Below, in pieces: positions 75 through 30,043 of a DNA stretch of 42,669 nt; positions within the stretch are counted from its first letter, which is position 1; the number at the start of each line of letters is the position of its first letter. A model generated the notes under the pieces. The model saw only the letters and a list, made by a program, of their open reading frames with translations, made no database searches and was not told the DNA's origin. The stretch lies in IMG/VR virus record IMGVR_UViG_3300009285_001108, positions 1 to 42,669 of that record, one strand, 5' to 3'. A program made the position numbers and the translations under genes. Origin of the DNA: a virus.

Positions 75-3000
75 TTACTTAGCCTTTGCCATACTTAAAG
101 CGGTCTTATAGTTTTCAATCCATTTATTTTGTAAGCTGATTAGTTCTTTTTTATCGGGGGCATTAAGCTGCTTAAGAAATTCTTTTCTGTTTTCTTTTGG
201 TATGAAACCCATCGGAGAATGACTGTTCATGGAAACTTTTATTCCGGTTAATAAATCCTTTCTTTCCTCGCCCTTTGAATCGTCAAGAATCATTCTTAAA
301 TAATCCGAAGCATCTATAATATCACCTTTGGTTATTTGTTCAGATGCGAGTTGGAGAGGGAAAGTACGGTCAGTTTTGCCATAGCCTATAGTTTCAAATA
401 TACGCTCATATATCTTAGTGGCTTTATCTTTTATCGTTACAAATTTTTGTTTATCTGCCCACTCTCCAGACCTACTTCTCCACTTGTTATATTCACTGGT
501 AACATTTTGAGAATTTAACTGGCTGTCAATTTTGTTTATAAGCGAACTGGCCAACCTGACTACGGGTGCTTGCTTGGCGAACTTAGCTATTGACTGAGGT
601 GCGAGTTTCGGATTCCTGATTGCTTCTCCGCCAAGTACGACTAATTTTCCTACTGTTGACTTGGCTGGCCCAAGTAATAAATCTTCCATTCCGTACATTA
701 CATTGGCTATAATAGGCCCAAACCCACCAGCCACTAAGTCATTCTTTATGGCGTTAATAATCTTGCCGGTATTTGTATCGCCAGATTTAACCTGATAGAG
801 AACGGACTTTTCGCTGTCGAACGCCCAATCTCTTATTATATTCTGCAATTCGCCCGCTATTCCAAGTCCAATTATAAATCTTATGAACTGTCCAATATCC
901 CTCGGTTCTCCTTTGGGCGGTAAGACTGCTTTTTTTGCGCTTTGTGCGATATTTTTAATCTGCTCAACCTGCCAACTCTTGAACTGGAATAATGTCTTTA
1001 GCCATTCGGCCATACTGTTTGCGTTCATCCACACGTTTTTAGTGGCGAGTGTTCTTGGGAACATCTCATCTCTTACTGTTCTATAGAGGCAAGCACCAAC
1101 GACTTCTGCGTCCCTACCGGCAGTATCAATAAACACATTAGCAAGTTCTTCATTTGATAATTTTGTAAGTTCTTTTATTCTAACATCATTAAAACCAGCT
1201 TTTTTAAGCCTGCTTAATGCGCGTTCTTCGCCGCCAAGAGACGCCTGAACAAGAGCGGTATATCTTTCAAGACCCCTTGTCCTGTCGGGGTCTATATCTC
1301 TTAGCAATTTTACATCTCTTTCCAAACTGAGCAATTTTACAAGAGCTATTCTCCGGTATGATGCTTCTTCGACAAGACTTCTTACTGTTCCAATTCCGCC
1401 AGATTTAACGCCGAGATTAGTTTCGGGCATTATACCCATATAATCAGGTATCCCGCCAAATTTAACCAAAGTTTTTCTCATCTCTTTTGCTGATTTTTTC
1501 CAATCTAAAGCAAGCGGCGGCAACTTCACAAAGGATTTACTTAATTGCGATAATCCACCTATCTTGTAACCCTTTACCGCACCTTCAATGGCATTAGCTA
1601 TGATATTTACTGCGTTAGTAGATGTTCCTATAGCAGCATGGTATTGTCTTATTTTGCTGGTTATGAATTTGCTGGCTGGACTACCAGGTGATTCCTGCAA
1701 ACCAAATTCAACCCTTAGATATGTCCTTAATTTATCTTCTATTTGTGAACCAAATTCATTCCCTATTTTCTTCAGAGAAACCTCAAGTTTTGGAAATCCA
1801 TTTGCTCCCCATATTCTTTGTGCTTCAATGAGAGTCCATTTTTTCCATAAAAAATTATGCGCGAATGTTCTTGCATTCCACTCTATATATTCAGTAGGCA
1901 TATCAAGTCTTGTACTCATAAAGTACGGATCAAGCCCTTCAAGTTGTGCCTTTTTGAATCTAACCATCTTCTTTATAGCGTCAGAAATACTGCTAGCTCT
2001 ACCTTCTGCCACCATTTCTCGTGCTGCTGTAAATGCCCTTGCATCTTTCGCACCTTTAGAATACGCACCCTCTACAGCCTTTTGGCCTTCTTCGCTCAAT
2101 ACATGAGGATGGGCATCGCCTTTTCCCGTTGGCAACATAGACAGCCATTTACCTTTAACTTTCCTCATTCCGCCAGTAGCCGTATATTCTGTTTGGAGTT
2201 CATCCAGGACAGCACGGTACAATTCTGAGTGTTTAATAATCTTGGGCGTTACACCTTCCGAATTAGGACTTATTCGATGATTTGTAAGTTTGGTAACGAG
2301 TTTTGTTTCTGCGACACTAAGGTCTTTGAGTGCTTCATCCATCTTTATTGCGGAATTATTGAATACTTTCTGTATTCTCCAATCAAGTCCCCGTGTTCCA
2401 GATTCGGCAGTGTCAGAAATTTGGGCAGATAATTTTTTACCTTCACTGCCAAGCCTATTCATAACACCGGAAACTCTGGATAGATTATCTTTTGCGATAT
2501 TTACCACAGATTTACCAAATAATCCAGTTTCTTTTGTAGTGTCAATGGCTGTATCAACAACCTTTTGGAGTGGTTCTATATCAACAAACCCGCCACGTGT
2601 ACCTTGAATTGGCTTCACTGCTGCCTCGCTGGCTTGCGATAATGGCTGGGGGGGGAGTATTTGCTCGGCATTCTTTTGCAAATCTCCACTTAACCTGATT
2701 TCTTTGGGGGAAACAAAATCGCTATTACTTTGCCACATTAAATCGGATGCCTTAATCGTAACTTTATATATTGCTCCGCTTTCTGAATATTGTTTTGCAT
2801 AGTTATAATCGGGTGTCCAATACTTGCCAATTTTTGCTGTGGTGTCTGATTCAAACGGTTTAGGTTTTTTAAATGGAGTAATTCCCCTGTATAGTATAAT
2901 CTCTGGATCGCTACCGTATTTTTGTATTAGGAAATTTGTAATAGCTTCTTTTGAATATACAGAGGGGGATACAAACTTATCAATATCTTTACGTATATTA

Positions 3001-4091
3001 TTATATAGTTTTACGTTTCCCGCTTCAGTTGGTACTATGACGCCCCCCTTTTCAACCTGGGGCATTGTGGGGGGCTTAGTGGATAATTGGGTAGATTTAC
3101 CAGGAGTAACATCTCCTGTTTTTGTAACAGGTTTGGCTTTTGTTGGCGGAGATATATATTTATCTCTTAAATCCTGCGGAACACCTTTGCCAGACCTTAT
3201 TGATTCTTTGGCTCTGTTTATATCTCGTAACTTTTCTGCCGCTTGGATTGCCTTTTGCTCTTGTAGTGTTTTCCCTATTACACCAGACTTGGCTAATTCT
3301 ATCTCTCTTGAACCCCAATATTTTTCAAATCCTTTGGCAAGGCCAGAAACCGCTGCTGTTACTGCAACTTCACCAACACCCCATAAAACTCCTATTCCCG
3401 ATGCAAAGTGAATAGCGTTCCAGTCAACAGGTTTTCCCTCTGTTATATTTTTACTGAATTGCATAGCAGATTCGACAGAACCAAATGTAAGTCCACTTGC
3501 AAGAATAGTTTTTAACGCTTGAGCTGCCGGTATCTTTGCAACTCCAGCACCAATACCAGTAGATGCTGTTTTAAATGCACCAATATATTTCGCTGCTGTT
3601 CCAGCGGAGACTTCTCCTGGTGTAGGTTCAAAGCCGGAAATTCTATCGACTAATTCTGCCAATGTTTTATCTCCGGTTATCTTATTAGCCAAAACATCGG
3701 TAACAGTTAATGATAATCCGCTTATGGTTTCTGCGACAGTTCTGGCTCCGAATTGTGCAACAGTTTTTAATTTGTGTTCTTCTCTAAATTCACGAACACC
3801 GTAGATAGGCGGTTCAAAATAACCAGTCTTTTCGTTGATATAACTTTTTATTTTGTCTATTTGTCTACCAAAAAAAGATGGTTCAGGCCCTGCAATAAAC
3901 TGTTGCGCATTTGATATTGGTACTTTATAATCCTTAGCTATGCCAAGTGCTATCTTCGCACGTTCTCTGGCCTGTTCTGGATTGATAGATTGAGTTTGTG
4001 GAACTAAACTGAAAAACCTGCCAATAGATTTTTCTTCCACGAATGGCTGTTCATTGTTTGTTTGAGTTGTAAGACCTTCAAATCTTCCCAT
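75..4091 (-). CDS. gp16-like internal virion (ejection) protein with ADP-ribosyltransferase-like segment
   Basis: This 1338-residue protein is the last of the gp13-14-15-16-like set, so it probably belongs to the internal core that is ejected into the host with the DNA. Residues about 165-250 are rich in Gly/Ala and hydrophobic, suited to membrane insertion. Residues about 360-475 resemble an ADP-ribosyltransferase fold: an Arg in ILYRGI (402), then GKYWTPDYNYAKQY (422-435), a beta-rich stretch IYKVTIKASDL, and SPKEIRLSGD with a candidate Glu (464). Before this lies a Pro/Lys/Thr-rich linker (310-350). The rest is long, helical and charged, as in phage polyvalent or injected proteins. There is no lytic transglycosylase motif like that of T7 gp16. 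The start ATG overlaps the stop of the upstream gene by one base. Confidence 0.75.
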   Translation of the reverse strand: MGRFEGLTTQTNNEQPFVEEKSIGRFFSLVPQTQSINPEQARERAKIALGIAKDYKVPISNAQQFIAGPEPSFFGRQIDKIKSYINEKTGYFEPPIYGVREFREEHKLKTVAQFGARTVAETISGLSLTVTDVLANKITGDKTLAELVDRISGFEPTPGEVSAGTAAKYIGAFKTASTGIGAGVAKIPAAQALKTILASGLTFGSVESAMQFSKNITEGKPVDWNAIHFASGIGVLWGVGEVAVTAAVSGLAKGFEKYWGSREIELAKSGVIGKTLQEQKAIQAAEKLRDINRAKESIRSGKGVPQDLRDKYISPPTKAKPVTKTGDVTPGKSTQLSTKPPTMPQVEKGGVIVPTEAGNVKLYNNIRKDIDKFVSPSVYSKEAITNFLIQKYGSDPEIILYRGITPFKKPKPFESDTTAKIGKYWTPDYNYAKQYSESGAIYKVTIKASDLMWQSNSDFVSPKEIRLSGDLQKNAEQILPPQPLSQASEAAVKPIQGTRGGFVDIEPLQKVVDTAIDTTKETGLFGKSVVNIAKDNLSRVSGVMNRLGSEGKKLSAQISDTAESGTRGLDWRIQKVFNNSAIKMDEALKDLSVAETKLVTKLTNHRISPNSEGVTPKIIKHSELYRAVLDELQTEYTATGGMRKVKGKWLSMLPTGKGDAHPHVLSEEGQKAVEGAYSKGAKDARAFTAAREMVAEGRASSISDAIKKMVRFKKAQLEGLDPYFMSTRLDMPTEYIEWNARTFAHNFLWKKWTLIEAQRIWGANGFPKLEVSLKKIGNEFGSQIEDKLRTYLRVEFGLQESPGSPASKFITSKIRQYHAAIGTSTNAVNIIANAIEGAVKGYKIGGLSQLSKSFVKLPPLALDWKKSAKEMRKTLVKFGGIPDYMGIMPETNLGVKSGGIGTVRSLVEEASYRRIALVKLLSLERDVKLLRDIDPDRTRGLERYTALVQASLGGEERALSRLKKAGFNDVRIKELTKLSNEELANVFIDTAGRDAEVVGACLYRTVRDEMFPRTLATKNVWMNANSMAEWLKTLFQFKSWQVEQIKNIAQSAKKAVLPPKGEPRDIGQFIRFIIGLGIAGELQNIIRDWAFDSEKSVLYQVKSGDTNTGKIINAIKNDLVAGGFGPIIANVMYGMEDLLLGPAKSTVGKLVVLGGEAIRNPKLAPQSIAKFAKQAPVVRLASSLINKIDSQLNSQNVTSEYNKWRSRSGEWADKQKFVTIKDKATKIYERIFETIGYGKTDRTFPLQLASEQITKGDIIDASDYLRMILDDSKGEERKDLLTGIKVSMNSHSPMGFIPKENRKEFLKQLNAPDKKELISLQNKWIENYKTALSMAKAK
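2667..3011 (-). other. ADP-ribosyltransferase-like domain within the gp16-like protein
   Basis: This segment encodes residues about 361-475 of the ejection protein. Seen: YRG, then WTPDYNYAKQY, then a beta strand with IYKVTIK, then a conserved-looking SPKEIRL. In ADP-ribosyltransferases of the R-S-E class an early Arg, a mid Ser/Thr-containing strand and a late Glu line the NAD site. The order here fits, though the middle motif is WTP rather than STS and the Glu is not in an ExE. Known precedent: T4 injects Alt, a virion-borne ADP-ribosyltransferase. Enzymatic activity is inference. Confidence 0.5.
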
Positions 4092-5566
4092 TATTGTTTT
4101 AGTACCCTAAGTATTTCAGTAATATTATTCGGGTCAGATTCTAATGCTTTATATATTTCTCGCCTTTCTACTTCTGGAATATCGTCCCAATATATGTCTA
4201 ATGACAAATCAGGGGCAAGGATCATATCTAATGAATCGGCAGTGTCAATAGGAGGTTCAATCGCATCTTTAACCGCTCTTTCTTCGTATAATAGTGCTGT
4301 TTCAGGATACTTGCCATTTTGTTGAAAATAGGTATCAGCCCATCTTATAAGTTCTGCATTTACTTTTTGCGACCTTGCCAGAACCCTTGCCTGTTCTGCT
4401 TTTGTATATATCCATGAATCTTCTGCTTTTCGTATTTCCTCTGACTTACTATCCATTACCGATTTAAGACTTTCCGCAAATGTTCTTGGATAAGGCTTGT
4501 TTACCTTTTCCCATGCGTTATTAAAATCTTCTCTTGATATATTTCCATCTACGAATTGGTCTAAAAGCATATCGTATGCTTCTTGTTTGCCCATCTGGCT
4601 AGTTGGTATTCCTATTACGATATTACTTATGGCAACCTGGCCGGAAACGCTTGTTTGCATTGGAGGAGTGCCAAGCCGTTTAAGATAACCGTTGTATCCA
4701 ATCCATTTCTCTTTTGTGTCATCTCCTTCCTGGTCTTTAGCAAAATTAGCAAGCTCTACATCATCGTAAGTTACAGGTTCTTTGGTTGGGTCTGCCATTC
4801 TTTCACCGAAATCTTTATAAGAATTCATATTATCAGTGAATCTTTCGGCTTCTTCTCTTCTCTTTAATGTAAGTTCATAACTGTCTATATTTGCCAGCAT
4901 TGCTTGTGCCTGTTCTGGGTCTAATATAGCAGAACTCTGAATAATATCTCTGGCCTCGTCAAATTTCCTGAGTCCTTTTAATTTGGCAACTTTATTTTCC
5001 ACGGATTGTATTTGCAGTTTTGATTTGTAGGCATTTATTTTTGTTTGTTCGACGCCGACTTCTCTCAATAAATCAGCCTGTTTTAATGCCGAATCTACGT
5101 CATCGCTTTTAATATATGCATCCGCATTTATCTGAATATCGGCTATGGCATTATCCTTCTCTATCGCCAATCCCTTAATAGTAAATGTTCTCTGCCAGTC
5201 GGGCATCACCCTGTCTTTGTACGTTTGAAGCTCGGTATTAACCCACTCATTCTTACCCTGAACCTTGTCTATATCGGATTCCCACTGGGATACGAGTTTG
5301 TCTCTGGTTTCTTTGTCATAGGTAGTTTCCAATGTAACCAAAAGGGCATTGCTTTTCTCGTCAACCTCCCTTTGCTTAGTGGATAAATCGACTTTGTTCC
5401 TAGTCTCTTGTATCTTCATTCCTAAATCGAATATCGTTCCACCTAACTGGGACGCTGCCCGCCCAATCATCTGTGAGCCGGTATCAACGTCAAGATTGGC
5501 TCTTACTGCCCCTGCTTGGCCAGATATTGTTCTTTGGGAAAACTGGACTGGAAATTCGCTTGTCAT
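4091..5566 (-). CDS. gp15-like internal virion protein
   Basis: A 491-residue, strongly helical and charged protein with Gln/Glu/Lys-rich heptad-like stretches (roughly residues 30-240 and 350-400), no signal peptide and no cysteine motif. Position decides the call: it lies between the gp14-like and gp16-like genes with one-base spacing or overlap on each side, exactly as gp15 does in T7-like phages. It probably forms part of the internal core or periplasmic tunnel during DNA ejection. No enzymatic motif is visible. Sequence similarity alone would not identify it. Confidence 0.65.
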   Translation of the reverse strand: MTSEFPVQFSQRTISGQAGAVRANLDVDTGSQMIGRAASQLGGTIFDLGMKIQETRNKVDLSTKQREVDEKSNALLVTLETTYDKETRDKLVSQWESDIDKVQGKNEWVNTELQTYKDRVMPDWQRTFTIKGLAIEKDNAIADIQINADAYIKSDDVDSALKQADLLREVGVEQTKINAYKSKLQIQSVENKVAKLKGLRKFDEARDIIQSSAILDPEQAQAMLANIDSYELTLKRREEAERFTDNMNSYKDFGERMADPTKEPVTYDDVELANFAKDQEGDDTKEKWIGYNGYLKRLGTPPMQTSVSGQVAISNIVIGIPTSQMGKQEAYDMLLDQFVDGNISREDFNNAWEKVNKPYPRTFAESLKSVMDSKSEEIRKAEDSWIYTKAEQARVLARSQKVNAELIRWADTYFQQNGKYPETALLYEERAVKDAIEPPIDTADSLDMILAPDLSLDIYWDDIPEVERREIYKALESDPNNITEILRVLKQ

Positions 5567-5567
5567 A

Positions 5568-6224
5568 TTAAAAACCCATTCCTGTTATTGGATTAACACT
5601 AAAACCTGCTCCCCCTGCCCCTGTAGGATTTGCTCCGCCAGTTCCAGTTGGTACTCCGCGTCCATTACCAAATGCACCCGCTGACTTTGCCGCACCAAAT
5701 CCCTGTAGAAGCGTACCGCCTGCCTGCATGTATGAGGCAGTTTGAGCAGCCTTACCCTTCCTAGTATAGATTTTCGACTGCATACGGTCAAGATTAGCCT
5801 GGCTTCTCAGTCTTGCGGCCTGAGTTGCGCCTTCATAACCCATGAGCATATTGTCAAGTTCAAACTCCGCCGCCTGTTTAGCCTGAATAAGAAGCGGTGC
5901 GCCTTCGGTTGTAATAGCCCCACTTGCCCCTAGATTGGCCGCTAGTGTACCCATCTGCCTATCAGAGGCCTCAACCTGCCTTCTCTGTTCTAAAGCCGTT
6001 TTGGCCTCAACCTGCTTAGCCTCTTGGTCTGCTAAGGCAGCATTGTATTTAGACATATTCGCAGCAGATTTCGCTTCTTGCCTTGCCGCTTCGCCCTGAT
6101 AAAGCTGACCACCGGCCATAAGACCTGCACCGGCAATAAGAAGAGCGGCGGGCCCATATCTCCTACTACATAGTTTTTCCGGTACTCTAAAGACTATACC
6201 ATTTCGTTCAATATAATTTACCAT
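5568..6224 (-). CDS. gp14-like internal virion protein
   Basis: About 218 residues from the ATG chosen here. A Gly/Ala hydrophobic stretch (YGPAALLIAGAGLMAGG) is followed by a long helix of the type EAARQEAKSAANMSKYNAAL..EAKQVEAKTALEQRR and then ASDRQMGTLAANLGASGA, the pattern of gp14-like internal proteins in podoviruses. The C-terminus is Gly-rich. It overlaps the end of the upstream acetyltransferase gene. The frame is open back to 6275, and an AGGAG-like sequence just before YGPAALL leaves the exact start uncertain. gp14-like proteins form the outer-membrane part of the ejection channel in T7; the same role here is inferred from position and the hydrophobic segment. Confidence 0.7.
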   Translation of the reverse strand: MVNYIERNGIVFRVPEKLCSRRYGPAALLIAGAGLMAGGQLYQGEAARQEAKSAANMSKYNAALADQEAKQVEAKTALEQRRQVEASDRQMGTLAANLGASGAITTEGAPLLIQAKQAAEFELDNMLMGYEGATQAARLRSQANLDRMQSKIYTRKGKAAQTASYMQAGGTLLQGFGAAKSAGAFGNGRGVPTGTGGANPTGAGGAGFSVNPITGMGF

Positions 6225-6627
6225 AGCAAATTGCATTTCCACCATCGGGATAATAACATTCTTTGAAACCATCACGCTTAAAACCTAGAAACTCTACGAG
6301 TTCTCTTGCCTTTGGGAAATCTTCCCTCACCGTTGCTTCAACCCTTTTGAGTTTGTGTATATCAACCAATTCTTCCAGTGCATTGTTCATGCACAAAACC
6401 AGTGCGGTCTTGTAGGTTAGTGCGTCTTTATGGAGTATAATCCACACCTCGCCCATACCTTGCCAATAAATAACGACACCGCCAACCCCGATGATACTAT
6501 CATTAACTATCGCGGTTCTCGCGTAGCCTGACAAGTCTAAAGAAGGGTATCTTTTAACCGCTTCTTCGATTGGATTAGCGGATACGTAATCTATATCAGA
6601 TTGCACCGAAGGACGAAGTACTATCAT
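6208..6627 (-). CDS. GNAT-fold acetyltransferase-like protein, gp13-like
   Basis: 139 residues beginning MIVLRPSVQSDIDYV, a usual GNAT start, with a central GVGGVVIYWQGMGEVWIIL strand pair and a C-terminal FPKARELVEFLGFKRDGF motif, which is typical of GNAT motif B. T7 gp13 has the same fold and the same position ahead of gp14. Its start ATG overlaps the stop of the upstream gene (ATGA-type junction at 6627). The acetyl-CoA loop (Q/RxxGxG/A) is poorly preserved, so it may be a structural or assembly protein without acetyltransferase activity. Confidence 0.75.
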   Translation of the reverse strand: MIVLRPSVQSDIDYVSANPIEEAVKRYPSLDLSGYARTAIVNDSIIGVGGVVIYWQGMGEVWIILHKDALTYKTALVLCMNNALEELVDIHKLKRVEATVREDFPKARELVEFLGFKRDGFKECYYPDGGNAICYGKLY

Positions 6628-7040
6628 TAGAATATATAGCCAAATACCGCAATTGTGGCAGTTGCGGCAATAGAGGATGCTCCAGCAACTATGTAAATTC
6701 CAAACTCCCTATCGACAGCAGCGGTTGCATCTCCATCAATTACTTTGTAATCATCACTGACTGCAACCAAGTGCATATAATCGGTAGTAGTTATCATGTC
6801 GGCTATGCCCGCTTCGGCATTGAGAAAACTTTGCGTTGCGCTTGCCGCGCCAGTTCCAAAATCCACATCAGTACATCCGGCCAAGGATGCACTAGGATTT
6901 CTGATTATAACATCGGTAATAACGCAATCCTTGCCTTTGGGGACAGTATATAATATCTGTTTTGTCGAATTGGCATTTGTTCCCATAGTAACGCTGGTAC
7001 TGCTGAGCAATGCTATTCCTTTTTCTTTCAAATCTGCCAC
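6627..7040 (-). CDS. Small beta-rich virion protein
   Basis: 137 residues, rich in Thr/Ser/Ala/Val, with strand-like alternation and the phrase ILYTVPKGKDCVITDVIIRNPSA. A very similar phrase (LIYTVPTGYDLVITDAYGYK) occurs near the C-terminus of the repeat protein at 15720-17186, so both probably share a beta-sandwich module. It sits between the tail spike and the ejection-protein cluster. The start follows an AAGGAG-type ribosome binding site. Likely a minor structural, decoration or head-fibre component; no family could be named with certainty. Confidence 0.6.
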   Translation of the reverse strand: MADLKEKGIALLSSTSVTMGTNANSTKQILYTVPKGKDCVITDVIIRNPSASLAGCTDVDFGTGAASATQSFLNAEAGIADMITTTDYMHLVAVSDDYKVIDGDATAAVDREFGIYIVAGASSIAATATIAVFGYIF

Positions 7041-7058
7041 GCTATAACTCCTTAAAGT

Positions 7059-9254
7059 TTATATTGATACTAGTTCGTTTTCATAAAAAACAATGTCGTT
7101 CTCGTAAGATACTATATTGGGAATAATTAACGGAACACCCAGTTCGGTCGGCATGGCGTAAATGTCACCCTCAAGATACGTTAATGCGTCATTCTTATTA
7201 TCAAATTGAACTACCTGAACAGCAGAAAAACGCACTTTTGCAACAGATGCAATCTCGTTATATAAAAAGAACCTGTCGTTGCCGCTTGCATCAGAAAGAG
7301 AAATACCAGATACCGTCTGCCAAACACCGTCCTTAACGGCTATTTTGCTATTATGCGTAGAATGTAAAACATCATCACCAGTCAATGATACCGTTAAACT
7401 GGAGTCTGCTCCCACACCCTTAACATTATAAGACCAGACATACCACTTTCCGCTTGTAACTACAAACGGCCATATCTGTAACGAGTCACCGTATGCCATA
7501 CTGGCTTCAAAATCCACCTCTATACATCTTCCGAACTGGCCATCATGTACCTGATACCTCACAACTGAATTCGGAGTAGCCGATGGGGTAAATGTAGTTA
7601 TGCAAGCTGCACCAGTGGTAACTAAATTGATATGGTCTGAGGTTAATCCCGTTCTTCTGGTAGTTAGATAAGAAACGCCATAATTAGATGTATTAAACAC
7701 ATTAGGATTAATTAGGTAACTATTGAAATGGTTTCCGCTAGAGGCACTATTGATTGAACTGTGATGCGTTACTATGCTGCTGGTTTCAGTTTGAACCCAC
7801 GTGGCTTGATTTAGATTGCAATTAAACGTATTCACCCGACATGTATCGAATGTGTAACTTTCAAGTTTCGTATTATTTATAACAAGGTTCTGAACATCCT
7901 TGAAATACGTGGCTATTGGCGTTATTGCGTCAATGGTATGACCATATCCAGAAGCAACGCCGTTGCCTTCGAGATGAATATTGTCTATCGTCAATGGACT
8001 ATTATCTATCGTAAATCCATAACTTGTCACATAAATCGCGAAGTTGTTTAATTCAAATAAATCATATTCAAATCTAGTCTCATAACCGTCGTTACTTGCC
8101 CCGCCATCGCCATTAATATACACGGCAGCGTATCTATTCCCTGTCCAGTAATTAAACCGGAAAATCTCATCCCCTACATGCCCACTTGTCCCTCCGCTGG
8201 TTGCATACCAGCCGTAATTATTACTTGCAAATTTACAGTCATGGATATTATTGCCCATTCCCCATACAGCCTTAATGGCGTAATCGCATTCACTGAACCA
8301 GCAATGAGATATTTCGCAGGATGTCTCACCGGCATTAAGATAAATTCCATTACCTTCTCTTGCGGCGGCAATATTACCATCAAACTTAAGATCAGATATT
8401 AACCTCTTTTTCCAGTTTCCAACGCCGGTAATAGTTAGTGCGTAATTCCCCGCCGAGTTTGCTTTTAAGATTGTACCGTAACCCGCCCCCTTATAGCTCA
8501 CTAATGAGTCGGTATTAGCATCTGTAACTTCTATACGATAAGTACCATCTGGAAAATATACCGTTCCGTTGCCGGCCGCAGCGGCCGCAGCAATAGCAAG
8601 GTCAACATAAGCGGAATCGTCCGTAGTGCCATCTCCTGTTGCTCCGTAATCTCTCACATCGAATACATGGTCAATATTCAGTAAAACCTTTGCATCTTGA
8701 GCATCGGCAGCTTCAACTAAACTCGTGCCGAACGCCGTCATTGACACAGAACCAGTAGCAACAGAAACAGAAGCGGTTGGTTTGCCGGCAGAATCGAAAG
8801 TCAAATTCTTACTTGCTCGGTCTATGGAATTTGGAAGCACATCTATCGAAGATGTTGGGTCTGTATCTGGAAATCTTAGAGTTCTTTCAATTGCATCGCT
8901 GTTTTCTACAATGAGTCTTGTATTCTTGTCCAGTGCCGCTTCGACGTTATCAGCATTAAACGTACCGCCCTGCTCTAAGTCCAGAGTCTGGGTCATGGCA
9001 GTATCTCTTATGACGTGAATCTGATAACTGCTCGATACGAATGGTGTAATTGTAGTAATTGTTCCACCGGCAGAACCATTATTGAGAAGCGTATAATGCG
9101 TATCTTGAGTTAGGGCTGTTTCATCGCCGGTAGAAATTTCTCTTTTTATTACCGTAATATCGCTGTCATTGACTATCGGAAAAGAAAACGACACTGTCTG
9201 TGCTGCACCAGTTCCAACTGCCGATGTTCTTGCTGTTTGATTGGAAATTGTCAT
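7059..9254 (-). CDS. Tail spike/fibre with T7-fibre-like N-terminus and pectate-lyase beta-helix
   Basis: 731 residues. The first ~150 residues (TARTSAVGTGAAQTVSFSFP ... LDKNTRLIVENSDAIERTLRF) match the virion-attachment domain found at the N-terminus of T7-like fibres. Residues about 200-240 carry FDVRDYGATGDGTTDDSAYV and GTVYFPDGTYRIE, the start motif of the Pectate_lyase_3 right-handed beta-helix. The helix continues to about residue 480, followed by a beta-sandwich, carbohydrate-binding-like C-terminal part. It probably binds, and may cleave, host surface polysaccharide. The ATG overlaps the stop of the tail tubular B-like gene (ATGA at 9254-9251). Confidence 0.85.
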   Translation of the reverse strand: MTISNQTARTSAVGTGAAQTVSFSFPIVNDSDITVIKREISTGDETALTQDTHYTLLNNGSAGGTITTITPFVSSSYQIHVIRDTAMTQTLDLEQGGTFNADNVEAALDKNTRLIVENSDAIERTLRFPDTDPTSSIDVLPNSIDRASKNLTFDSAGKPTASVSVATGSVSMTAFGTSLVEAADAQDAKVLLNIDHVFDVRDYGATGDGTTDDSAYVDLAIAAAAAAGNGTVYFPDGTYRIEVTDANTDSLVSYKGAGYGTILKANSAGNYALTITGVGNWKKRLISDLKFDGNIAAAREGNGIYLNAGETSCEISHCWFSECDYAIKAVWGMGNNIHDCKFASNNYGWYATSGGTSGHVGDEIFRFNYWTGNRYAAVYINGDGGASNDGYETRFEYDLFELNNFAIYVTSYGFTIDNSPLTIDNIHLEGNGVASGYGHTIDAITPIATYFKDVQNLVINNTKLESYTFDTCRVNTFNCNLNQATWVQTETSSIVTHHSSINSASSGNHFNSYLINPNVFNTSNYGVSYLTTRRTGLTSDHINLVTTGAACITTFTPSATPNSVVRYQVHDGQFGRCIEVDFEASMAYGDSLQIWPFVVTSGKWYVWSYNVKGVGADSSLTVSLTGDDVLHSTHNSKIAVKDGVWQTVSGISLSDASGNDRFFLYNEIASVAKVRFSAVQVVQFDNKNDALTYLEGDIYAMPTELGVPLIIPNIVSYENDIVFYENELVSI

Positions 9255-28663: not shown

Positions 28664-28679
28664 GGCTTGCGACAAAATA

Positions 28680-28909
28680 GACCATCGGCACTAGTCCACG
28701 CAGAGATAGCGTATTTCTGGATTAGTCCAGTATGCTTGCCCGATGGTCTGAAAAGATATGAATGGCAATCCGCAGCCCGTGTCTGCATGACCTTGTTGGT
28801 TGGTTGGTCATAATGCTGTAATCGTTCACGGGTGAAACCAACTTGCTTATTCATTATCTGTAAGGTACTGCCTGGCTTTAATAGCTCTATGGAGCTAAGG
28901 CTGGGCAGT
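28680..28909 (+). ncRNA. Candidate structured non-coding RNA
   Basis: The 311-base gap between genes is richer in G and C than its surroundings and packed with pairings: GACCATCGG/CCGATGGTC (28680-28688 with 28740-28748) enclosing CTGGA-TTAG-TCCAG; CCCGTG/CACGGG (28776-28781 with 28827-28832) enclosing ATGACC/GGTCAT; and an 18-pair hairpin at 28867-28909 (12 + 6 pairs, UAA bulge, UAUG loop). GTTGGT repeats near 28795 can pair with ACCAAC near 28838. No T-run follows, so the 3' end is not clear and may extend to about 28960. Strand is assumed from the neighbouring genes. No Rfam family could be recognised. Confidence 0.6.
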
Positions 28910-29352: not shown

Positions 29353-29769
29353 ATGAAAACACTCTTGATAATATTATCACTGTATAGCGTAGGCTATACA
29401 ATAAACTGGGAGAAAGAATATCCCATTATAGAAAAAGCAGCTTTGAGAAACAACTGCGAGGGTGATGATTTTTTAATCCTGTTGGCTATAAGACTAGCCG
29501 AGCGAGGCGGCGAAGGAAAAGAGTTTGGGATTGTTCACCCGAAGGCATGGGGGACAAATTTAGATACGCAGGCAGGATGGGCAGCTTGCACCGTAGTTAA
29601 GAACCGCAAGCGATATGAAAGCCAAGTAAGGTCAGGGACGACCTGTGATTTTATTACGTTCCTGGGTAATCGTTATTGCCCAATCGGGGCGGCCAACGAC
29701 CCCAAAGGCTTGAACCGTAACTGGGGAAAAAACGTAACATATTTTTACAACAAATTAAAAAGTGAATAG
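29353..29769 (+). CDS. Lysozyme-like/transglycosylase protein, endolysin candidate
   Basis: 138 residues. A short hydrophobic N-terminus (KTLLIILSLYSVGY) could be a signal sequence or signal-anchor. The body has AIRLAERGGEGKEFGIVHP with a likely catalytic Glu at about 50, TQAGWAACTVVKNRKRYE, and FLGNRYCPIGAANDPKGLNR with NWGKNVTYFY. These phrases recur in a phage family with the lysozyme-like layout. GGAGATATAAC precedes the ATG. It would cut peptidoglycan from the periplasmic side. The lysis partners (holin-like) lie at the end of the late operon, so expression timing is unusual. Confidence 0.65.
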   Translation: MKTLLIILSLYSVGYTINWEKEYPIIEKAALRNNCEGDDFLILLAIRLAERGGEGKEFGIVHPKAWGTNLDTQAGWAACTVVKNRKRYESQVRSGTTCDFITFLGNRYCPIGAANDPKGLNRNWGKNVTYFYNKLKSE

Positions 29770-29875
29770 CCAGTAGTGGCGGAATATAGACGCTAATGAC
29801 CGGAAGGATGCCTCCTGTGAATATCCGGCTAAGGGCGGGGCAATCCCGTGCAGGTGGAAATCCTGCCTACTGGCT
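29768..29875 (+). ncRNA. tRNA-like structured RNA (class II-like, non-canonical)
   Basis: Nine base pairs AGCCAGTAG/CTACTGGCT (29768-29776 with 29867-29875) close the element. Inside, TGGCGGAATATAGACGC matches the tRNA-Leu/Ser D arm (GCG/CGC stem); CGGG-GCAAT-CCCG (29836-29848) matches a long variable arm; GCAGG-TGGAAAT-CCTGC (29850-29866) has T-arm geometry. Deviations: the D loop lacks the GG pair, the T loop reads TGGAAAT rather than TTCGAAT, and the anticodon region is a 42-base arm (CCGGA-AGGA/TCCT-TCCGG) with no clear anticodon. No CCA is encoded. Directly abuts the lysozyme-like stop codon. Confidence 0.6.
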
Positions 29876-29890
29876 CTTATAAGTTAATAA

Positions 29891-30023
29891 CGGCGGCTGA
29901 AAAAAGATAAAAAGAGAATTTTAAGAAGTGCGTTAAAAACGCTTTATGAAAGGCTCTAATTTATGGTGAACTGGATTGGACAGTATTATACAACTCACTT
30001 GCCAACGTTGGCGACAGCCGCCG
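29891..30023 (+). ncRNA. Second candidate structured RNA
   Basis: CGGCGGCTG (29891-29899) pairs perfectly with CAGCCGCCG (30015-30023), closing 115 bases. Inside are GCGTT-AAA-AACGC (29930-29942) and the palindrome GCCAACGTTGGC (30001-30012). The interval is A-rich and has no gene. It lies 15 bases after the tRNA-like element and 20 bases before the next ATG, so it could be an independent RNA or a leader of the downstream operon. Confidence 0.55.
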
Positions 30024-30043
30024 ATATTTTAGAAAGGTGAAAA

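Follow-up and report, generated by a model that had tools for sequence, protein, structure and literature searches.

Mimicry of tRNA is already known from YrlA, plant-virus RNA ends and tmRNA. The plant-virus tRNA-like structures are the aminoacylated 3′ ends of genomic RNAs. Staphylococcal cell-wall tRNA-Gly, which has GUGC for GUUC in its T loop and a changed D loop, acts outside translation and is charged, with anticodons and CCA. In the engineered "tRNA scaffold" an RNA of interest takes the place of the anticodon arm and is held by the tRNA core; we know of no natural counterpart with an exchangeable arm. The bacterial Y RNA YrlA (RF02553), which has been reported from phages too, imitates tRNA naturally: it joins arms resembling the acceptor, D and T arms to a non-tRNA arm, and its two ends make a Ro-binding basal stem (PMC8394870). 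In tRNA itself, residue 19 pairs with 56, residue 18 contacts 55, and U55 is universal (PMC4810234); plant-virus structures such as that of TYMV mimic this elbow and have another topology elsewhere (PMC4810234).

We analysed a 42,669-base phage contig from IMG/VR, the whole of which we call the window. A first-pass annotation had reported a tRNA-like cloverleaf with a long variable arm at 29768-29875 on the plus strand. The minimum-energy fold of 29768-29876(+) agrees, giving a cloverleaf of -44.0 kcal/mol (z -2.5 against shuffles) with, in order, a 9-bp acceptor-like stem, a D arm, a forked hairpin, a variable-type hairpin and a T arm. Because the reverse strand folds about equally well (z -3.6), fold energy alone is little proof.

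All parts of the cloverleaf lie on the plus strand. In the fold, the 5′ strand of the acceptor-like stem (29768-29776) has a 7-bp core, CCAGTAG at 29770-29776, with an AG extension; the 3′ strand (29867-29875) is CTACTGG plus CT, all 9 bp are intact, and the element ends CTACTGG-C-TCT with no CCA after it. The U8-G9 linker (29777-29778) is TG, as in 115/115 aligned family members. The D arm at 29779-29793, found in the fold, in the family table and by R1 (a covariance model built from 40 family members with the window excluded), has the stem GCG/CGC and the loop GAATATAGA with A14 and A15. The T arm at 29850-29866, found in the fold, in the family table and by R1, has a 5-bp stem GCAGG/CCTGC and the loop TGGAAAT, with T54 at 29855, G55 at 29856, G56 at 29857 and A58 at 29859. 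Between these, the fold places a variable arm (29794-29849) that replaces both the anticodon and the variable arms. It runs from the linker TAATGA through a forked hairpin at 29800-29828, in which CCGGA (29800-29804) and TCCGG (29824-29828) enclose AGGA/TCCT, to the linker CTAAGG and the hairpin GCGGG/CCCGT at 29835-29849. The end base of the latter, 29849, is U48, and a T precedes the T stem in 115/115 family members. The fork had been called a 42-base hairpin; about 42 nt are reached when the single-stranded linkers are included, and the hairpin proper is 29 nt.

Several canonical tRNA features are missing from the element, as the earlier reading had noted. GG is absent from the D loop and TTCRANY from the T loop, and the fork occupies the place where a readable anticodon would sit in a 7-nt loop with U33. 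CCA is not encoded, and an enzyme might yet add it. ARAGORN found no tRNA in the window. No known unrelated RNA family claims the element in Rfam, which gave zero matches across the entire window at gathering scores; at E <= 10 the sole match was a chance CRISPR repeat at 29916-29939, with no match to a tRNA model. Scanning both strands for a structure with T54, A58 and stems of 7 bp (acceptor), 3 bp (D) and 5 bp (T) returned this element plus a single weak A/T-rich site. One check proposed earlier was a covariance model of homologues, and R1 finds the element as its sole match in the window, at full length (model 1-113, positions 29770 to 29873), with 44.2 bits and E 2.4e-9. Judged from its sequence, 29768-29875 is a real small-RNA gene, tRNA-shaped and lacking both an anticodon and a CCA end.

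The relatives of this element were found through its conserved parts. BLAST of the whole element against named phages gave chance matches only, and scanning for the exact pattern of the window element found nothing besides the window. A T-arm pattern yielded one relative, L001, whose acceptor stem is different yet pairs over 9 bp; from its genes we read L001 as a T4-like contig. Combining the D arm with GTGGAAATC in one two-part pattern yielded L041, L066, L088 and a short L105, and a final viral scan, in which the T loop could read TGC or TGG, yielded a large group. Pattern matches at L004 and L014 came through an apparent intron-bearing tRNA-Leu and were discarded. L105 and L267 proved to be decoding tRNA-Leu with CCA, normal anticodons and the same altered loops. 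BLAST with the T arm gave candidates in Bacillus SBSphiJ1-7 and in SPbeta-like, Listeria, Enterococcus, Leuconostoc and Lactobacillus phages, most of them at places without annotation. R1 confirms those of SBSphiJ1, SPbetaL1, EFDG1, LP-101, LNTR3 and Goe27, and scores the copy of P100 at 37 bits. None of the named phages examined has the element annotated, no Rfam family covers the loci of the named-phage members scanned (a set without P100), and Rfam 15 has no entry for the family. The open-access papers searched hold no description of it, and an earlier one may exist in subscription papers or preprints. Of the earlier suggestions, that of a tRNA mimic or a new RNA class is supported by the element's place in a widespread RNA family without an Rfam entry.

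Homologues in unrelated viral contigs carry changed stems, and compensating changes keep these stems across the family. Among the 101 pattern matches whose T stem is 6 bp long, 73 have a perfect 7-bp acceptor, against 0.9 expected when the 5′ and 3′ sides are drawn from different matches (cross-pairing). A slide control over all matches pooled was uninformative, which was resolved by splitting the matches on T-stem length. When 40 members were aligned, the D-loop core was near-invariant and the acceptor and T stems covaried strongly, with both-sided changes in 11/16 pairs and a covariation score of 0.73 versus 0.04-0.12 when slid; this set was prefiltered for pairing, the unselected figure being 73/101. 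With R1, most of 79 loci score 50-88 bits (the family includes the 40 training sequences), and ordinary tRNA-Leu genes of ~940 bacterial genomes from three classes score at most 43.0 bits among the matches listed. Longer matches of 46-82 bits occur in eight Bacilli genomes; the G55 rule makes five of these members, and in a further one, L419, the T loop is ordinary. The window element exceeds the best ordinary tRNA-Leu by only 1.2 bits (44.2 vs 43.0). The score thus barely separates the two, and the separation comes from G55 and from the lack of a tRNA-model match, an anticodon and CCA.

By its features the window element appears to belong, as an outlying and divergent member, to a large family of phage RNAs. 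U8, A14, A15, U48, U54, A58 and G55 are all present in it, and its D loop is two bases shorter than the family standard. The T stem is 6 bp in most members and 5 bp in the window, L001 and L041, which may form a sister subgroup. The alignments indicate that the family retains the D and T arms, the acceptor stem and the elbow of tRNA-Leu. Features in common with bacterial and phage class II tRNA-Leu are the acceptor/T stack, U8-G9, the 3-bp D stem, A14 and A15, a long arm before the T stem, U54/A58 and U48. The family differs from tRNA-Leu in having G55 for U55, mostly a 6-bp T stem, a single hypervariable arm instead of two, and no anticodon, CCA or fixed discriminator. CCA is encoded in 2/101 members, A73 is present in 54% of the 101, and there is no G1 preference.

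The D-loop/T-loop contacts had been thought missing from the element; the family argues for a rewired contact instead. U8, G9, A14, A15, U48, U54, G55 and A58 are invariant in 115 aligned members, some of these positions, e.g. G55, being required by the search pattern itself. In members with a standard D loop, positions 19 and 56 are G-C in 101, U-G in 2, C-G in 1 and A-U in 1, with 3 mismatches, after removal of one duplicate row. Fisher's test of G19 against C56 on these rows, done by hand, gives ~7e-6, a value to be taken only as a guide since the sequences are related and non-independent. The copy of Listeria phage P100, at 126403-126543 on the minus strand of DQ004855.1, has A56, and a U is available in its D loop. 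L041, L105 and the Leu-CAG tRNA of L267 combine A18 C19 with G55 G56, and the window combines A18 U19 with G55 G56. We propose that A18 and U19 of the window are 29786 and 29787 and that U19 is the partner of G56, a register inferred within a short D loop. Because 19 and 56 change together, the contact is compensated and not lost, and the elbow of the family is rewired. The family offers a clean natural experiment on the tRNA elbow, in which the near-universal G19-C56 is replaced by A-U, U-G or C-G. Altered loops also occur in decoding tRNAs: in the 205-kb phage contig L267, the tRNA cluster at 2165-7810 has mostly G55 and altered D loops (A18 in most), together with CCA and normal anticodons.

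The stretch from the D arm to the T arm is 31-95 nt long and nearly unrelated in sequence among members, so that 101 cores fall into 84 arm clusters. Many members have one hairpin that closes immediately 5′ of a conserved CAT, itself before the T stem. At L292 and L337 the downstream flanks score 294 of 300 and the acceptors are near-identical, and the arms, with an identity of 0.52, resemble each other no better than random arms do, which have a mean of 0.43 and a 95th percentile of 0.69. L356 has the arm of L294/L337/L401 on a different acceptor, and Goe27 differs from SBSphiJ by a single exchanged hairpin inside the arm. These comparisons indicate that one arm, swapped for unrelated sequence between close phage relatives, replaces the anticodon and variable arms. 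The exchange is seen in other members; for the window phage itself, searching with its proteins turned up a single distant locus, and no close relative for comparing arms or covariation. Arms showed no antisense match of >= 13 nt to their own loci (mean 8.7 vs 8.1 in controls).

Our comparative analysis shows a tRNA-like core under selection joined to an exchangeable arm. We consider the window element to be probably a non-coding, non-decoding tRNA-mimic gene, a divergent member of a tRNA-Leu-derived phage family that serves as a scaffold for the exchangeable arm. The scaffold reading is well supported, and the target of the arm is inferred. The RNA would be transcribed with the late or tRNA operon and would fold as the outer half of a tRNA, which host tRNA processing would trim and protect. 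G55, hence no pseudouridine 55, and the lack of CCA would keep it from translation. The scaffold would then present the arm to its target, most likely a host RNA-/tRNA-handling or defence factor or a factor of a rival phage, and pressure to track that target would explain the arm turnover. We favour such targets by analogy, because rapid exchange of an arm at a fixed place resembles arms-race genes. The CCA enzyme and synthetases, which had been named as decoy targets, are disfavoured because the family has no CCA, fixed discriminator or G1. More tentatively, a natural tRNA scaffold might serve phages as a frame for delivering exchangeable RNA effectors, with the arm a cassette-swapped anti-defence or inter-phage weapon and the elbow rewired so that the RNA folds like tRNA and is ignored by translation.

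Since the family lacks the features of tRNA and YrlA that were tested, and we know of no natural counterpart, we regard it as new in kind; on a stricter view it could count as one more variant of tRNA mimicry. Its members differ from plant-virus tRNA-like structures in being stand-alone DNA-phage genes without CCA, and from staphylococcal cell-wall tRNA-Gly, with its charging, anticodons and CCA, in having neither anticodon nor CCA. Compared with the engineered scaffold, the family would be natural and phage-borne. Annotation seems to have overlooked a structured RNA family even though its carriers include such well-studied phages as SBSphiJ, SPbeta relatives, P100, EFDG1 and those of L. plantarum and Leuconostoc. 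If the arm is an exchangeable effector, these RNAs would form an RNA-made class of phage counter-defence or competition factors, testable in B. subtilis phages.

The genomic setting of many members could instead suggest that the element acts in cis, as a processing or regulatory structure, shaped like a tRNA, with which the transcript of a late (here early) operon begins, and that it has no trans-acting role. Carriers are phages of Bacillus, Listeria, Enterococcus, Lactobacillus and Leuconostoc, and in many temperate Firmicutes phages the element lies on the same strand between a RinA/ArpU-type activator, ~50-900 bases upstream, and HNH, terS and terL downstream. In Listeria phage LP-101 (L465:2218-2643), the gap between RinA and the late genes holds two Rfam RNAs, rli62 and mcrA, with the family member between them in series. 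The window element likewise fills a gap between two same-strand ORFs, and its first two bases also belong to the stop codon, at 29767-29769, that ends the ORF upstream. However, copies in tRNA clusters (Herelleviridae, Tybeckvirinae, L066, L088 and L299) have no fixed downstream gene, and a cis role leaves the wholesale exchange of arms at one locus unexplained; we regard such a leader as unlikely, although the best placed of the alternatives. In Enterococcus phage EFDG1 (L464:976-1529), the family member abuts the end of a phage tmRNA match.

Less likely still is a role like that of YrlA, in which the RNA would tether a Ro60-type protein, here DUF2828/DUF7788, to a nuclease. DUF2828 genes are present in the contigs of L066, L088, L105, L346 and EFDG1 and in P100. 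In addition, the P100-like Listeria phage CKA15 makes extremely abundant unannotated RNAs near its tRNA genes and upstream of a Ro-like gene, for which the authors suggested Y RNAs (PMC12282133). These RNAs are our nearest literature lead and may be candidates for this RNA. Yet 18/20 records carrying the RNA lack DUF2828, the window contig has neither DUF2828 nor TROVE (Ro60/Rsr), and a search of the window with RF02553 up to E <= 10 is negative. The family also differs from YrlA in that its ends form an acceptor stem and not a Ro-binding basal stem, and in that most carriers have no Ro-like gene. Better candidates for phage Y RNAs are separate AACAGCAA hairpins that lie directly before the DUF2828 genes in L088 and P100. 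DUF2828/DUF7788 (vWA) genes, whose proteins are possibly Ro60-like, lie at L066:2225-3778(-), L088:9664-10434 and L470:21571-23091(-). The idea that arms bearing AACAGCA bind DUF2828 was dropped, as both contigs with such arms lack the gene.

A packaging RNA acting with terminase in the manner of phi29 pRNA would suit the frequent location directly before terS/terL, but the Herelleviridae and other copies sit in tRNA clusters far from terminase. In the window, the minus strand encodes the terminase, head-tail adaptor and head proteins, and the plus strand has the recombination genes; the element is ~5 kb from terL on the opposite strand and adjoins neither terminase nor a tRNA cluster, so a packaging role is very improbable. 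We hold it equally doubtful that the RNA is a tRNA that works after removal of an intron-like insert, or one charged for non-ribosomal use. In favour of this, LeuRS does not read the anticodon. At L066:3875-4487(-), four true tRNAs are interrupted, in the D loop or the anticodon arm, by inserts of ~45-55 nt with a stem-loop and the motif ACAGCAA, and removal of the inserts would give near-normal arms. In the window we saw no cut that restores an anticodon loop, there is no CCA or conserved A73, and U55, universal in tRNAs (PMC4810234), is G in 115/115 members.

Decay, the earlier suggestion of a phage tRNA-Leu gene that lost its anticodon arm and is drifting, would account for the clearly tRNA-Leu-like D and T arms and for tRNA-Leu genes reaching 43 bits with R1, but it is already refuted at the family level and has very little chance at this locus, given compensating changes that preserve stems, the 19-56 elbow covariation, ~100 distinct copies that share the non-decoding form, and the window's complete 9-bp acceptor. 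A related tRNA-Leu-like element without an anticodon, which adjoins a normal tRNA-Leu and would suit decay, lies at L299:64-176 and L387:11662-11774(-), after that tRNA and before a terminator-like hairpin; a palindromic hairpin is apparently inserted in its D loop.

Two further features of the window were noted. Directly 3′ of the element, 29886-30028(+) is a second strongly folded non-coding stretch (z-score -5.6) without an Rfam match, in which 14-nt closing arms, AATAACGGCGGCTG and CAGCCGCCGATATT, enclose three hairpins. At 28679-28749, a perfect 10-bp inverted repeat (AGACCATCGG/CCGATGGTCT) surrounds 51 nt; it lies in a stretch that has only short ORFs in all six frames.
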